Assembly: GCF_963920485.1 (NCBI RefSeq)
Contig: NZ_OY986431.1
Span: 1,550,001-1,614,000 of the forward strand
From: Cyanobium usitatum str. Tous
GTDB taxonomy: Bacteria > Cyanobacteriota > Cyanobacteriia > PCC-6307 > Cyanobiaceae
Length of the DNA stretch: 64,000 bases
Reading direction: 5' to 3'
Position 1 is the stretch's first letter. The number at the start of each line of letters is the position of its first letter. The translations under genes and the position numbers were made by a program. Shown here piece by piece: positions 26,571 to 31,177 of this stretch. The notes under the pieces are model-generated. The model searched no databases, was not told the origin of the DNA, and was given only the letters and a program-made list of their open reading frames with translations.

Positions 26571-28238
26571 TTGACCAACGCCGAAGCTGCCAAGGAGCTG
26601 GGTTACGACCCAGGCCGGGACCTGCGCTGGTTGCTGTTGCGCCCCTGGGTGCTGATAGCCCGGCTGTTCGTGGTGATCTGGCAGCTGTCAAGCCTGGCCC
26701 TGGTGTTGGTGGTGCAGGGCAACAGCAGCAATGCCCAAGTGCAGCAACGGCTGGGAAGGCGCATTCTCACCACGCTCACGGACCTGGGCCCCTGCTTCAT
26801 CAAGGTGGGCCAAGCCCTTTCCACCAGGCCCGATCTGGTGCGGCGCGACTGGCTCGAACAGCTCACCCAGCTGCAGGACAACCTGCCCGCCTATCCCCAT
26901 GAAATTGCCCTGGCAACCATTGAGCAGGAATTGGGCGCCCCGGCCGACCAGTTGTTTGAGATATTCCCCGACTACCCCGTAGCAGCCGCCAGCTTGGGCC
27001 AGGTCTACAAAGCGCAGCTCGCTGATGGCCACTGGGTGGCCGTCAAGGTGCAACGCCCCAATCTGCCCACCATTTTGCGGCGGGATCTAGTGATCATCCG
27101 CCTGTTGGCTGTGCTGAGTGCGCCGCTGCTGCCGCTCAACCTGGGCTTTGGCCTCGGCGACATCATCGATGAATTCGGCTCAACTTTGTTCGAGGAGATT
27201 GATTACCGGCTCGAGGCAAACAACGCCGAACGATTTGCCGATCTGTTCGCTAGCCAGCCCGAGGTGACCGTGCCGCGGGTGGAGCGACTGCTATCCAGCC
27301 AGCGGGTGCTCACCACCCAGTGGATCAATGGCACCAAGTTGCAGGAACGCCAGGCGCTGGAGGCTCGCAACCTGGATCCCTCAGCCCTGATCCGCACTGG
27401 CGTAATCGCCGGGCTGCAGCAACTACTCGAATTTGGCTATTTCCATGCCGATCCCCATCCCGGCAACCTATTCGCCCTCTCCGGCAAAACCGGCCCCCTA
27501 GGCCATGTGGCCTACGTAGATTTCGGCATGATGGACTCAATCAGCGACAGCGATCGCCTCACCCTCACCGGGGCCGTAGTGCACCTGATCAATCGGGATT
27601 TCAGCGCCCTAGCCGCTGATTTTGTCAGTCTTGGCTTCCTCAACCCCAAGGCCGACCTCGAGCCAATCATTCCTGCCCTTGAGGAGGTGCTTGGTGGCGC
27701 ATTGGGCGACAACGTGGGCTCCTTCAACTTCAAAGCCATCACCGATCGTTTTTCGGAGCTGATGTATGCCTATCCCTTCCGGGTGCCAGCTCGCTTCGCC
27801 TTGATCATTCGGGCGGTGGTGAGCCAGGAGGGCCTGGCCCTGCGGCTTGAGCCCAGCTTCAAGATAATCCGTGTTGCCTATCCCTACGTGGCCCGACGCC
27901 TACTGGCAGGCGACACCAGTGAGATGCGTGAAAAACTACTTGAGGTGCTCTTTGATCGCCATGGTCGTCTGCAGCTTGAACGGCTGGAAAATCTATTGGC
28001 AGTCGTGGAAAACGATTCCACCAATCCAGATTTGCTTCCAGTTGCAGGAGCTGGCCTAAAGCTGCTGCTGGGTCGAGAAGGCGGCAGCCTGCGGCAACGA
28101 CTGCTGCTTACCCTGGTTCAGGGCGATCGACTTCACACAGATGATTTGCGCGCTTTGATGGGCTTGATGGGGCGTACTTTTTCACCACGCAAGTTGGTTA
28201 GTGGCATGCTGGCAAGGCTTACCCTGCAACCCGCTTAA
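26571..28238 (+). CDS. ABC1/UbiB-family atypical kinase
   Basis: A 555-residue ABC1K protein. Diagnostic motifs are the KxGQ element in CFIKVGQALSTRPD, the Ala-rich loop AAASLGQVYKA, the invariant Lys in VAVKVQRPN, HADPHPGNLF and the metal-binding Asp in YVDFGMMD. The C-terminal third is helical and membrane-associated. Cyanobacterial ABC1 kinases act in prenylquinone metabolism and stress response. I chose TTG 26571 because nothing upstream in frame is a usable ATG or GTG and the family sequence begins here; the longer frame back to 26124 is antisense to the decarboxylase. Confidence 0.88.
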   Translation: MTNAEAAKELGYDPGRDLRWLLLRPWVLIARLFVVIWQLSSLALVLVVQGNSSNAQVQQRLGRRILTTLTDLGPCFIKVGQALSTRPDLVRRDWLEQLTQLQDNLPAYPHEIALATIEQELGAPADQLFEIFPDYPVAAASLGQVYKAQLADGHWVAVKVQRPNLPTILRRDLVIIRLLAVLSAPLLPLNLGFGLGDIIDEFGSTLFEEIDYRLEANNAERFADLFASQPEVTVPRVERLLSSQRVLTTQWINGTKLQERQALEARNLDPSALIRTGVIAGLQQLLEFGYFHADPHPGNLFALSGKTGPLGHVAYVDFGMMDSISDSDRLTLTGAVVHLINRDFSALAADFVSLGFLNPKADLEPIIPALEEVLGGALGDNVGSFNFKAITDRFSELMYAYPFRVPARFALIIRAVVSQEGLALRLEPSFKIIRVAYPYVARRLLAGDTSEMREKLLEVLFDRHGRLQLERLENLLAVVENDSTNPDLLPVAGAGLKLLLGREGGSLRQRLLLTLVQGDRLHTDDLRALMGLMGRTFSPRKLVSGMLARLTLQPA

Positions 28239-28276: not shown

Positions 28277-29518
28277 TCAGCCAACTTGGGGGATTGTCAT
28301 CCAGCAGAAGGTGATAGCAGCACCACCTACCAGCACCACAACTAGTGGCCAGGTGTCATCGAGGCGATTCAGCTGCTGCAGCAATGCTTGTTTCTCAGCG
28401 ATATCTTCAATCGATTCCATCACAGCATAACGACGCCCAATCCATAGGACCAATACAAAAGCCGCCAAGGTCACTACGTAGGCAACAACGTACACCTGAT
28501 CAAGGAAGGTAAGAAAGGGTAAATCAGGCAGCTTATCGCGATAGGTTTGCTGCAGAAAAACCAAAGTAAGTAGCACCGTGACCGGAATACTGGCGCGGGC
28601 ATCCTGCTCATCGGGCCGCACCTTAAATACCAATAACACCATGACCATCAACACGGAGAGTGGTAATAACAACCTCCAGAAAGACGCCCATGAAGAGGTG
28701 CCATAGGAAATCTCAAAGAGGATCTGGCTATAGTCATTTTCTTCGCCACCAAGCCCAAAATTTGTAGCGTAATGGTGCCGGTATTCAGAAATCGACCAGC
28801 CGGTATTTAGCCAGCCGATGATGCGAGCGTAGAGCCCCATGCCGCTATTGCGAATCTCCGGTATTAAGCGGAGATCTCGGTAGCCGAGCTCCCCATCTAC
28901 GTCATTAGGCTCAATAACGACTGGCAGGCTGACATTCATGAAAGGATAGTGCCGAAAACTAGCCTTGTCCACATAATATCTGCCAATATAAGTGAATAAT
29001 TGATAGTAGCTGCCATCGGCGAGCCGCACCGGGGTTTCGCCGACCGGCCCAAGGCTAGAATCCTTATCAGAAAGCAAGGTATTTAGCACAATAAACAAGC
29101 TGGAAATATCCCCGCCGTGAGTTTCCACATAGCGCTGCATAGGCTCCTCCCAGCGCAGCCAAACATAGCCACTGCTGGAATAGCTCGGCACCGTTAAATC
29201 AAGCTCATAATTACTAGTTGAATACACTCCCACTTCCACCTTATATTTGGCTCGCTCCAACTCAGCTCGATCCACCCTTTCCTCGCCGGTGCTGAGCTGG
29301 TCTCCCCGCATGGCGCTCCATTCCCCCAGGGCCGGCTTCTTACCGAGGGGCAGGGTGGTGAGGGCGCGGGATGCGGAGGAGAGACGCAGAGAGTCGCGGC
29401 TAAGCACTGGGCTCACATCAATGCGCCCGATGCCAACCATGGCCAGGATGGCTGCCAGAACAACGGCAACCATCGCCAGCACATTCCAAGGCCTTTGCCT
29501 GCGCTTCCCCATGCCCAT
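28277..29518 (-). CDS. pentameric ligand-gated ion channel (pLGIC, Cys-loop receptor superfamily)
   Basis: A 413-residue membrane protein with one N-terminal hydrophobic segment (about 11-31), a beta-rich extracytoplasmic domain, then four helices (about 278-299, 309-327, 338-360, 390-408). The Pro-loop hallmark is FRHYPFMNVSLPVVIE at about 188-203, without the cysteines, as in prokaryotic members. M1 contains the conserved Pro (LLLPLSVL). M2-M3 reads ASIPVTVLLTLVFLQQTY then DKLPDLPFLTF, which lines up without gaps with GLIC (NLPKTPYMTY), putting Asp306 at -2', Ser310 at 2', Thr314 at 6' and Leu317 at 9'. ATG 29518 or 29512 is the start; the binding protein is divergent and its ATG overlaps. 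Confidence 0.82.
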   Translation of the reverse strand: MGMGKRRQRPWNVLAMVAVVLAAILAMVGIGRIDVSPVLSRDSLRLSSASRALTTLPLGKKPALGEWSAMRGDQLSTGEERVDRAELERAKYKVEVGVYSTSNYELDLTVPSYSSSGYVWLRWEEPMQRYVETHGGDISSLFIVLNTLLSDKDSSLGPVGETPVRLADGSYYQLFTYIGRYYVDKASFRHYPFMNVSLPVVIEPNDVDGELGYRDLRLIPEIRNSGMGLYARIIGWLNTGWSISEYRHHYATNFGLGGEENDYSQILFEISYGTSSWASFWRLLLPLSVLMVMVLLVFKVRPDEQDARASIPVTVLLTLVFLQQTYRDKLPDLPFLTFLDQVYVVAYVVTLAAFVLVLWIGRRYAVMESIEDIAEKQALLQQLNRLDDTWPLVVVLVGGAAITFCWMTIPQVG

Positions 29519-30671
29519 CCCCTGCAGTTTGCTGAAGTTAAAGCTGAAAGCCGCTTGTGGGCCAGTAGGCACCGGAATGGCGCTGGCCCTGACGCTGACC
29601 CTGCCTGCCCTGGCATCAACAGAACTGGTGCTGGGGCAGTCGGCTCCCCTCAGTGGCCCTTCCGGCATGCTCGGCAGCGAATACCGAGAAGGGGCTCTGG
29701 CCTATTTCGCCGAAGTGAATCGCCAAGGTGGCGTGCATGGCAGGCGCCTCAAGCTGCTGAGCCTCGACGACCGCTACGACCCACCTCTGACCCTGCGCAA
29801 CACCAAGCAGCTGATTGAGCGCGACAAGGTGTTTGCCTTGTTTGGTTATGTGGGCACCCCAACCGTCAAGGTTGTGTTGCCCTTGGTTGAGAAACAGAAA
29901 ATTCCACTGATAGCACCACTCACCGGCGCCCAACTGCTACGACAGCCCCATCGCCCCATGGTGTTCAACCTGCGTACCAGTTACCACATGGAAATCGACC
30001 GGATGGTCGACTACCTAGTGCGCAGCGGCCGCCATCGGGTTGCGGTTGTCTATCAAAACGATGCCTTTGGCCAAGACGGCCTCAAGGGCTCTCTAAAGGC
30101 CTTAAGACGCCATGGCCTCAAACCAGTGGCCACTGCCAGCGTTGAGCGCAACTCAAACCAAACCGTTGGGGCTGCGAGCATGGTGCAAAACGCCAATGCC
30201 AACGCGGTTTTGGTGGTAGCGGCCTACCCGAGCTCGGCCTCCTTAAGCCGCGAGATGCGGCGGCGCGGCAGCACAGCCCAGCTGATGAACGTGTCGTTTG
30301 TAGGCACCAGCGGCCTGAGGTCCTCCCTGCAAAGCCATGAGGCCAGTGGCATTGGCGTGGCCCAGGTAGTGCCTTTCCCGTGGAACGAAAGGGTGCCAGT
30401 GGTGAAGGAATACCAGGAATTGATGCGCCGCCAGCAGACCAAACCGCACTTCGGCTTTATCAGCCTGGAGGGCTTCCTTGCCGCAAAAATGACAGTGGAA
30501 GGCCTGCGTCGGGCCGGGCCGGCACCCAGCCGCCAACGCTTTGTGACCGCCCTTGAGACCATGCGCAACGTAGACCTTGGCGGCTACCGGGTGCAACTGG
30601 GCCCCCAGGACCACAACGGCAGCAGCTTCGTCGAACTCACCTTCCTGGGTTCCCAGCGCTGGGAACCCTGA
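29511..30671 (+). CDS. periplasmic amino-acid-type substrate-binding protein (Peripla_BP_6)
   Basis: A 386-residue exported protein of the Leu/Ile/Val-binding type. After a signal peptide ending near PALAS, the mature part begins LVLGQSAPLSGPSGMLGSEY, with the Ser/Gly ligand loop, then LRNTKQLIERDKVFALFGYVG and VAVVYQNDAFGQDGLKG. No permease or ATPase gene is nearby, so it is an orphan as a transport component. It is divergent from the pLGIC with overlapping start codons. TTG 29529 is an alternative start giving a cleaner signal peptide. The last codons form a perfect palindrome. Confidence 0.85.
   Translation: MPIPCSLLKLKLKAACGPVGTGMALALTLTLPALASTELVLGQSAPLSGPSGMLGSEYREGALAYFAEVNRQGGVHGRRLKLLSLDDRYDPPLTLRNTKQLIERDKVFALFGYVGTPTVKVVLPLVEKQKIPLIAPLTGAQLLRQPHRPMVFNLRTSYHMEIDRMVDYLVRSGRHRVAVVYQNDAFGQDGLKGSLKALRRHGLKPVATASVERNSNQTVGAASMVQNANANAVLVVAAYPSSASLSREMRRRGSTAQLMNVSFVGTSGLRSSLQSHEASGIGVAQVVPFPWNERVPVVKEYQELMRRQQTKPHFGFISLEGFLAAKMTVEGLRRAGPAPSRQRFVTALETMRNVDLGGYRVQLGPQDHNGSSFVELTFLGSQRWEP
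30647..30668 (+). promoter_or_regulatory. perfect 22-bp palindrome at the 3' end of the binding-protein gene
   Basis: gggttcccagc is followed directly by its exact reverse complement gctgggaaccc, ending one base before the TGA at 30669. In RNA it makes a 9-bp stem with a GCGC loop. There is no T-run behind it, so it is not a classic terminator; it could stabilise the 3' end, attenuate transcription into the gene at 30710, or be a protein-binding site. Confidence 0.5.
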
Positions 30672-30709: not shown

Positions 30710-31177
30710 ATGGCCAGCCTGCCCCTCGACGCCATGGACAGCAGCGCCCTGCCGGACGGCTGGATGTATGCCGACCTCGATGCCAGCGACATCCTGCTGG
30801 AGTATGCCCAGATCATCCAGCCCCCCTACCTAGTGGCGGGTGTGGGCCTGGCCATCGGCGTGCTCTGCGGGCTCACCTTCGCCAAATTGGTAGAAAACAA
30901 GCTGGAGGGCTGGAAACAAGATCGGCTGCCCCTGCTACCGCTTGGCAGTTTTGCAGTAACTCTGCCCTACTTCGGCGTGGTGATCGGCATCACCCTGTTT
31001 ATTGGCGGCAGCCTGCAGGTATTCGGTTTCTCAGCGGGGGTTGCCCTGCTGGTTTCATTTGTGTTGTCGATTGCCACCGCCGGCGCCCTTTGGGTGCAGC
31101 TGGAACGGCTGATGGCTCAGGTAGAAGCTGGCACCTTCAGCGCAGTCGACTTTGACAACTTTGATCAGTTTTTCTAA
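30710..31177 (+). CDS. conserved cyanobacterial membrane protein, unknown function
   Basis: A 155-residue protein with three hydrophobic segments: about residues 42-60 (LVAGVGLAIGVLCGLTFA), 80-103 (LPLGSFAVTLPYFGVVIGITLF) and 106-127. The ends are acidic (DLDASDILLEY near the start, SAVDFDNFDQFF at the end). It follows the binding protein by 38 bp on the same strand and could be co-transcribed with it. No function is recognised. Confidence 0.65.
   Translation: MASLPLDAMDSSALPDGWMYADLDASDILLEYAQIIQPPYLVAGVGLAIGVLCGLTFAKLVENKLEGWKQDRLPLLPLGSFAVTLPYFGVVIGITLFIGGSLQVFGFSAGVALLVSFVLSIATAGALWVQLERLMAQVEAGTFSAVDFDNFDQFF

Follow-up and report, generated by a model that had tools for sequence, protein, structure and literature searches.

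We propose, at a probability of roughly 0.6, that two divergent genes of Cyanobium usitatum str. Tous encode one sensory module, in which a solute-binding protein (SBP) senses and a pentameric ligand-gated ion channel (pLGIC) is the output. The genes lie head to head in the window, the stretch of 64,000 nucleotides that was analyzed. The channel subunit (413 aa) is encoded on the minus strand at 28277..29518, with an ATG at 29518 or 29512, and an orphan type I SBP (Peripla_BP_6; 386 aa) on the plus strand at 29511..30671, with its ATG at 29511-29513. A previous reading made from the sequence alone (hereafter the sequence-only reading) had described divergent genes with overlapping start codons, and the ends of the open reading frames agree with it: the plus-strand ATG and the CATs of the two minus-strand starts (29510-29512 and 29516-29518) define an overlapping region at 29511..29518, and the coding regions share up to 8 bases. 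No sigma-70-type promoter match was found in 29300-29750. Both genes are under purifying selection: against five relatives, dN/dS is 0.04-0.07 in the channel gene and 0.10-0.18 in the SBP gene. Two plus-strand genes flank the unit, lie outside it and are frequent syntenic neighbors: an ABC1-type kinase gene (26574..28238; PF03109) and a gene for a small membrane protein (30710..31177), whose weak TctB match (PF07331; 17.2 bits) is under the cut-off.

On its modelled fold, the product of the minus-strand gene is a bacterial pLGIC subunit, related to the ion channels that serve as nerve receptors. The chain, modelled singly with AF2 from an alignment of 64 sequences, takes the pLGIC fold with a pLDDT of 83.3 and a pTM of 0.77; this model supersedes a shallower one built from 14 close sequences (pLDDT 54.5). 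The beta-sandwich ectodomain and four helices that characterize the superfamily are present in this single-chain model, and the best solved-structure match by Foldseek is GLIC (3eam; E = 1.2e-18; TM 0.79 by target length). A phmmer comparison also matched ELIC (4twd) over aa 168-365 (E = 1.1e-8). Profile searches place the channel with the pLGICs as well, although the Pfam and NCBIfam scores fall below the cut-offs (20 bits against 28.1 for PF02932, 28 against 500 for NF033918 and 29.2 against 280.2 for TIGR00860). PF02931 gave no match in the genome, but this profile was equally silent in 14 of 14 controls. In our judgement, the fold search outweighs the missed cut-offs, because a cut-off is a library threshold and not a trait that defines the superfamily. 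The full pLGIC plan that had been read on this strand is thus borne out by the Pro-loop, the four C-terminal helices and the single-chain fold.

The domains of the channel were delimited on this model (all coordinates refer to the minus strand). The chain is predicted to start with a hydrophobic helix (aa 11-32; 29423..29488), which may be either a signal peptide or an uncleaved anchor. A conserved extension follows (aa 33-76; RDxLRLxSxxRAL), where R41, D42, L44, R45, L46, R51 and L53 are invariant in 14 sequences. DSSP analysis of the model assigns the predicted ligand-binding beta-sandwich domain to aa 77-273 (28700..29290), which includes the Pro-loop F-R-H-Y-P-F (aa 188-193; 28940..28957). 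P192 provides the proline expected in this superfamily at the tip of the beta6-beta7 loop and, like F193, is invariant (64 of 64 sequences). The four transmembrane helices M1-M4 (aa 276-408; 28295..28693) are modelled at aa 276-299, 305-327, 338-368 and 373-408. The pore helix M2 (aa 305-327; 28538..28606) presents D at -2', R at 0', S at 2', T at 6', L at 9', F at 13' and Q at 16', and the residues that the sequence-only reading had assigned to -2', 2', 6' and 9' were all correct. Position 0' is R in all 64 sequences, and -2' is D or E in 63 of them and N in one. Every member of the head-to-head clade (37 sequences, five without a seen SBP neighbor) has D at -2', T at 6' and L at 9', and 24 have S at 2'. 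D306 at -2' provides the acidic ring of cation-selective pLGICs, from which the channel would be expected to conduct cations. Overall, the channel has its fold, Pro-loop, four helices and an acidic residue near the cytoplasmic pore mouth in common with GLIC of Gloeobacter and ELIC of Erwinia; unlike them, it presents an extra N-terminal helix, the conserved extension and a dedicated adjoining SBP gene. Its identity to solved pLGIC structures is 14-20% among the 50 best structural matches.

The plus-strand product scores 201.9 bits (E = 2.8e-59) with PF13458 (Peripla_BP_6; cut-off 31.7), in a match over nearly its full length (profile positions 4-330 of 343). A search of its profile against the PDB recovered 3lop (E = 2.8e-72) and 4kv7 (E = 6.8e-69). 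By eye, aa 1-36 resemble a signal peptide, with A-L-A at its end. The protein has the type I SBP fold in common with LivJ and LivK and can be aligned with them over most of its length. However, LivJ has E226, which we take to contact the amino group of the ligand, where this SBP has S262, invariant across 15 aligned paired SBPs. The acidic residue expected of a leucine- or branched-chain amino-acid-binding protein is absent from this position and, because a serine replaces it, the "Leu-type" specificity proposed by the sequence-only reading is unsupported and was dropped.

The relatives of this SBP point to signalling. We read nine plasmid loci with SBP relatives of at least 35% identity: a chemoreceptor is the next gene at five and a response-regulator/EAL pair adjoins the SBP at one, while three have no receptor next to it. 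None of the nine has an ABC permease as immediate neighbor; the only relative seen with a complete branched-chain ABC operon is more distant (30% identity). Chemoreceptor-linked relatives were found in Ruegeria, Phaeobacter, Thioclava, Terrarubrum and Deinococcus. Because five of these nine relatives adjoin chemoreceptors and none immediately adjoins a permease, a sensing role is favored. The genome of C. usitatum itself has no chemoreceptor (MCP) domain. Its six PF02653 permease matches all lie outside the window, in keeping with the earlier remark that the SBP lacks ABC partner genes there. The SBP therefore lacks the adjoining cognate permease gene expected of an ABC importer, and service to a distant permease stays compatible with this arrangement.

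Such service belongs to the alternative that survives best, namely that the SBP and the channel are co-regulated and respond to the same solute without contact. The SBP would then feed a remote permease or buffer the solute, and the channel would bind the solute orthosterically. The channel may indeed bind a ligand directly, because it retains the loop-B acid (E203, aligned with ELIC E131, a ligand contact according to the available part of PMC9674596) and aromatic residues around loop C. In the head-to-head clade, Y246, Y250 and F254 do not vary among the 37 sequences. The channel can also persist without the SBP, since two lineages keep the channel only (G084/L090 and the clade of G287, G201 and G189). 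At one of the genome's three PF02653 sites, the SBP match in the vicinity is weak, at 23.6 bits, and lies about 1 kb off, but the other two already adjoin an SBP of their own above the cut-off. With signalling proteins beside six of the nine nearer relatives and the complete ABC operon seen only with a distant one, we consider this alternative unlikely, although it deserves to be weighed seriously.

We surveyed the pair in 300 Cyanobiaceae genomes. Across 79 channel rows (the best 77 in listed order plus two lower ones, with more among the matches listed), the SBP is head to head with the channel in 44, an SBP relative is tail to tail in five and no such SBP adjoins the channel in 30, a few of these at contig ends. 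For the SBP, 61 of 62 rows were compared, the left-out row being the second half of a split gene. The pair is thus conserved in related genomes; it is present at 31 of 35 named loci, with a gene broken in frame at two (L101 and L103). A weak SBP remnant with a stop was found in G070 (E = 9e-6). Fifteen genomes from other families of the phylum have a channel match; we fetched 11 loci from these families, and no SBP relative lies within 1.5 kb at any of them. Together with the 30 family rows, this shows that pairing does not hold for pLGICs in general. No channel relatives were found in viral contigs or on plasmids. A second pLGIC of the same genome was considered together with a Tll0287-like partner and rejected as a conserved pair, since a search of 20 genomes found the two side by side in one.

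Of the 68 pair records, 44 were kept as intact and non-redundant; 25 of these are head to head and share the ABC1-kinase/TctB/sigma-factor setting. Distances between channels correlate with distances between SBPs (r = 0.955 for the 44 pairs; r = 0.884 for the 38 crown pairs, a value that none of 999 permutations reached), as expected for any two linked genes. The common flanks and correlated trees could therefore reflect unrelated genes held together by the slow change of gene order in picocyanobacteria. However, 12 pairs are found elsewhere and five are tail to tail, with inverted relative orientation (two more have too little flank), and these several chromosomal settings indicate that the link exceeds inherited gene order. 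In addition, the whole pair is present in two copies in G001, G007 and G014 (not counting L050, a channel fragment of 63 residues at a contig end), and in G011, which gave no channel match, the usual flanking genes enclose just the final 77 codons of the SBP gene. Neutral linkage is therefore improbable. The origin of the tail-to-tail pairs by independent recruitment is undecided: their SBPs nest inside the head-to-head group in a tree with L148 and L150, two long outgroup rows, the head-to-head group is separate with a support of 0 when these are removed, and the data do not reject a tree that unites all paired SBPs in one clade (p-AU 0.49).

The retention of the pair across many picocyanobacteria suggests a channel that is cued by a separate soluble sensor. 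In the sensory module that we favor, the SBP would be exported to the periplasm and act as the ligand-sensing subunit, binding a small solute of the periplasm in the cleft that its two lobes form. A homopentameric pLGIC in the inner membrane would form the output, and the ligand-loaded SBP would shift its open probability, most simply by docking on the ectodomain or on the extra N-terminal extension. Cations would then cross the membrane through the pore with its acidic ring at -2'. The channel would thus fill the place of the chemoreceptor with which several motile bacteria pair relatives of this SBP. The sensing unit proposed by the sequence-only reading remains the best reading, given these chemoreceptor-linked relatives, but a leucine-like ligand is unsupported. 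Of the three outcomes that the sequence-only reading had named as refuting it, none arose from the profile searches, the single-chain fold or the survey of related genomes. That the SBP is instead an antagonist or sink, which keeps the channel shut until the ligand comes, draws on the same evidence, since sequence cannot separate activation from inhibition, and appears very improbable.

To our knowledge, the role of bacterial pLGICs in their own cells is largely unknown. A dedicated, soluble and genetically linked sensor offers a direct handle on this question, as the solute of the SBP would point to the cue of the channel. The general link between pLGICs and periplasmic binding domains is already known, as the sequence-only reading had noted in outline. 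In the available part of Tasneem et al. (dated Dec 2004; PMC549065), PBP-I::pLGIC fusions are described in Magnetospirillum and Bradyrhizobium, PBP-II or Cache genes adjoin other bacterial pLGICs, and a chemoreceptor-like function is proposed for such channels. These systems and our pair both link a pLGIC with a periplasmic small-molecule-binding domain. In contrast to the PBP-I fusions, the PBP-I partner is here separate, divergently encoded and widely kept in a picocyanobacterial clade. DeCLIC likewise combines a bacterial pLGIC with a periplasmic accessory module, but this domain is N-terminal, fused and calcium-linked (PMC12664993, as far as available), whereas in our pair it would be a soluble SBP. 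As the sequence-only reading had supposed, we found no characterised cyanobacterial pair in the open-licence literature.

The receptor types stimulated by SBPs include chemoreceptors, sensor kinases, cyclic-di-GMP enzymes and Ser/Thr kinases (PMC9602780), and the term "ion channel" is absent from the part of this text that was available. Relatives of our SBP are likewise encoded beside chemoreceptors, but its own genetic partner encodes an ion channel. If the module is real, ion channels would join the receptor types known to be driven by SBPs, and the pair would be a bacterial counterpart of the animal channels that bear binding-protein-like domains. More tentatively, the agonist of the channel could be the soluble SBP itself, and one sensory SBP family could drive chemoreceptors, pLGICs and perhaps bestrophin-like channels. 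All eight of the intact picocyanobacterial SBP paralogues without a pLGIC neighbor that we fetched precede a gene for a bestrophin-like membrane protein.

The channel gene (28277-29518, minus strand; 413 aa) and the gene of the orphan solute-binding protein (SBP; 29511-30671, plus strand; 386 aa) diverge, with as many as 8 bases shared between their start regions. No sigma-70-type promoter match was found in 29300-29750. The same overlap of channel and SBP matches was observed in the nearest relatives (L044 first module, L045, L046, L047, L048 first module and L049), and the two matches do not overlap in most others. In head-to-head pairs, 88 to 274 bases separate the two profile matches, as counted between profile edges and not gene ends. 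The third-position G+C of the channel gene is 0.59, relative to 0.71-0.76 in its neighbors, and its synonymous divergence from the three nearest relatives is three to four times that of the SBP gene.

We found a channel match in 20 of 60 relatives; the SBP search covered 40 genomes. All 14 channel copies with at least 54% identity in the fetched regions presented the SBP head-to-head (15 with the window), a 63-residue channel fragment at a contig end being left out. Across 300 Cyanobiaceae genomes, the channel profile matched 99 (E 0.001) and the SBP profile 47 (E 1e-20). The SBP was head-to-head in 44 of the 79 channel rows compared (the best 77 among the matches listed and two lower ones), tail-to-tail in 5 and neither in 30. 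Named records, which overlap in part with the 300-genome set, contained the pair at 31 of 35 loci, including Cyanobium usitatum and several Synechococcus; L085, one exception, starts at a contig end. The usual flanking genes (ABC1-type kinase, TctB-like small membrane protein and sigma factor) are kept in L090 (the locus of genome G084), where the SBP is missing, and L100, L102 and L110 form one channel clade without the SBP. Genome G070 possesses the channel and, tail-to-tail to it, a broken SBP remnant that matches weakly, and genome G011 keeps the flanking genes with no channel match and an SBP reduced to its last 77 codons. L076 and L104, which both carry the pair, derive from records entered as Bifidobacterium breve and Phycisphaerae bacterium and, judged by their gene content, look like mislabelled picocyanobacterial bins.

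After reduction to non-redundant intact pairs, 44 of the 68 pair records remained. One or more of the three usual flanking genes lie within 5 kb in 25 of these; 12 are head-to-head with none of the three within 5 kb, two have too little flank and five are tail-to-tail. The module is present twice in three genomes, with copies ~4 kb apart in G001 and G014. Patristic distances in the channel and SBP trees were correlated (0.955 over 44 pairs; 0.884 over 38 crown pairs, with 0/999 permutations as high). Such a correlation would also be expected from linkage alone; stronger evidence for linked fate comes from the changes in setting and orientation.

All pLGIC matches of the channel in Pfam and NCBIfam were sub-threshold. 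Using phmmer, residues 168-365 matched ELIC (E 1.1e-8), as did positions 85-363 of a profile built from 14 relatives (E 3.3e-9). The AlphaFold2 model (pLDDT 83.3, pTM 0.77; 64 relatives in the alignment) presents helices at 11-32 and 77-89, a beta-rich domain and helices at 276-299, 305-327, 338-368 and 373-408. Searched against the PDB with Foldseek, this model retrieved 1103 chains at E 0.001 or better, with GLIC (E 1.2e-18; TM 0.79, normalized to target length) at the top of the list, just ahead of an ELIC entry (1.5e-18). The alignment confirmed the M2 pore letters named by the sequence-only reading (Asp at -2', Ser at 2', Thr at 6' and Leu at 9'). Among 64 channel sequences, 0' is R in all, -2' carries an acid (D or E) in 63 and N in the remaining one, and 9' is L in every sequence but one, which has a gap there. 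The tail-to-tail group presents E at 2' and A at 6' (4/4 each), and its pore therefore differs from the head-to-head type. The N-terminal helix is joined to the ectodomain through a conserved extension, RDxLRLxSxxRAL; we know of no similar extension in GLIC or ELIC.

The SBP belongs to the Peripla_BP_6 family, and its first 36 residues resemble a signal peptide by eye. In a profile search, the solved structures closest to it were 3lop, 4kv7 and 4m88. We aligned it with LivJ and LivK of E. coli: S262 stands at the position of LivJ E226 (the amino-group contact) and T116 at that of LivJ S79. Neither S262 nor T116 varies among 15 paired SBPs. Leucine is therefore unsupported as the ligand, and the "Leu-type" ligand proposed earlier was not sustained.

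Relatives of the SBP were found by tblastn on 88 plasmid records, 58 of them from Phaeobacter. We examined nine plasmid loci with at least 35% identity to the SBP, for which gene tables are incomplete. The next gene encodes a methyl-accepting chemotaxis protein (MCP) in five of the nine (Terrarubrum, Deinococcus, Ruegeria, Phaeobacter and Thioclava), and in Deinococcus the locus also includes a response regulator and CheW. Next to the Burkholderia relative lies a gene for a long response-regulator protein and then one for an EAL protein; an HDOD gene lies 400 bases beyond the relative in Eleftheria. No signaling gene adjoins the relative in Comamonas or in Cupriavidus, the latter an unannotated record judged from ORFs. 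An ABC permease was the immediate neighbor in 0/9 loci; within the stretches examined, an "AzlC family ABC transporter permease" lies three genes off on the other strand in Phaeobacter, and in Ruegeria an ATP-binding cassette gene is found upstream, two genes off. Of three loci with more distant relatives (at most 32% identity), one combines a tricarboxylate-type SBP, an ATP-binding protein and a response regulator, another presents a branched-chain ABC operon with all its parts, and the third has a CoA ligase. The window's own genome yielded no MCP domain match, and the same search was positive in 7 of 14 control genomes. It contains three PF02653 permease sites, two with an adjacent SBP above cut-off and one with a weak SBP match (23.6 bits) ~1 kb away; an additional Peripla_BP_6 gene lies elsewhere in this genome.

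All eight intact picocyanobacterial paralogues fetched without a pLGIC neighbor (L040-L042 and L125-L129) are directly followed by a bestrophin-like gene. Four further channel-less SBP genes are broken or fragmentary and were left out of this count. Relative to the L128 protein, the bestrophin-like proteins present 42-93% identity in six loci and 37% in L127, and the three tested matched PF14023 above cut-off. A PstS-like binding-protein match follows in 6/8 loci. This arrangement is putatively a second operon of an SBP and a candidate channel.

Fold, conservation, co-inheritance and the sensory neighborhoods of SBP relatives are directly supported. The simplest account would be a two-protein receptor, in which the SBP would sense and the channel would answer; contact, gating direction, ligand and ion are the parts that we infer. 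In both the phmmer and profile alignments, channel E203 aligned with ELIC E131, a ligand contact in ELIC according to PMC9674596; among 64 sequences this position is E in 62, and the other two have Q. Y246, Y250 and F254 do not vary within the head-to-head clade as grouped here (37 sequences), which takes in five channels without a seen SBP neighbor. By keeping the loop-B acid and aromatic residues, the channel leaves room for the first alternative to a two-protein receptor, namely that the ligand binds the channel directly.

We found no published account of this pair in our searches of open-licence papers. Tasneem et al. (PMC549065) report that pLGICs of two alphaproteobacteria carry fused PBP-I domains and that stand-alone PBP-II genes and one Cache gene adjoin other pLGICs, and they propose chemoreceptor-like roles. 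In the partial texts of two other papers, neither "periplasmic" nor "neighbo" occurs (PMC4795631), and SBP-driven receptor types are listed with "ion channel" absent (PMC9602780). PMC8786288 treats the role and partners of picocyanobacterial orphan urtA genes as unresolved.

A related pLGIC group (35-39% identity to the window channel) presents a run of genes on one strand: a PLP (pyridoxal-dependent) decarboxylase, an unknown membrane protein, an MFS transporter and, last, the pLGIC (L117:1548-6604, plus strand; also L114, L115 [same locus as L077], L116, L118 and L119). The run was found in six of eight loci; L120 is cut by a contig end, and L113, the deepest branch, is without it. The L117 decarboxylase, the only one scanned, matched the NCBIfam histidine decarboxylase (358.7 bits vs cut-off 305). 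The membrane protein looks Cache-like and kinase-like by eye and has no Pfam match. The run is a possible operon for making histamine that includes its own receptor-like channel. For the wider pLGIC group it hints at the importance of amines, and it says nothing direct on the window pair.

Other pLGICs presented further neighbors. The second pLGIC of the window's own genome (L056; G000:C1:2418826-2420788) is head-to-head with a Tll0287-like gene, an adjacency found in 1 of 20 genomes searched. Another group adjoins a UrtA-like binding protein, tail-to-tail in L031:7563-10023 and on one strand, a few bases apart, in L096:5067-7471; the related loci L060 and L062 yielded no UrtA match. In L036:8616-10919, the gene of a distant pLGIC and a bestrophin-family gene (PF25539) are divergent. 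Finally, the pLGICs of L121 (genome G320) and L122 (genome G267) adjoin a divergent gene resembling, by eye, the start of a DevBCA-type operon, and that of L121 also adjoins ABC genes including a branched-chain-type permease.
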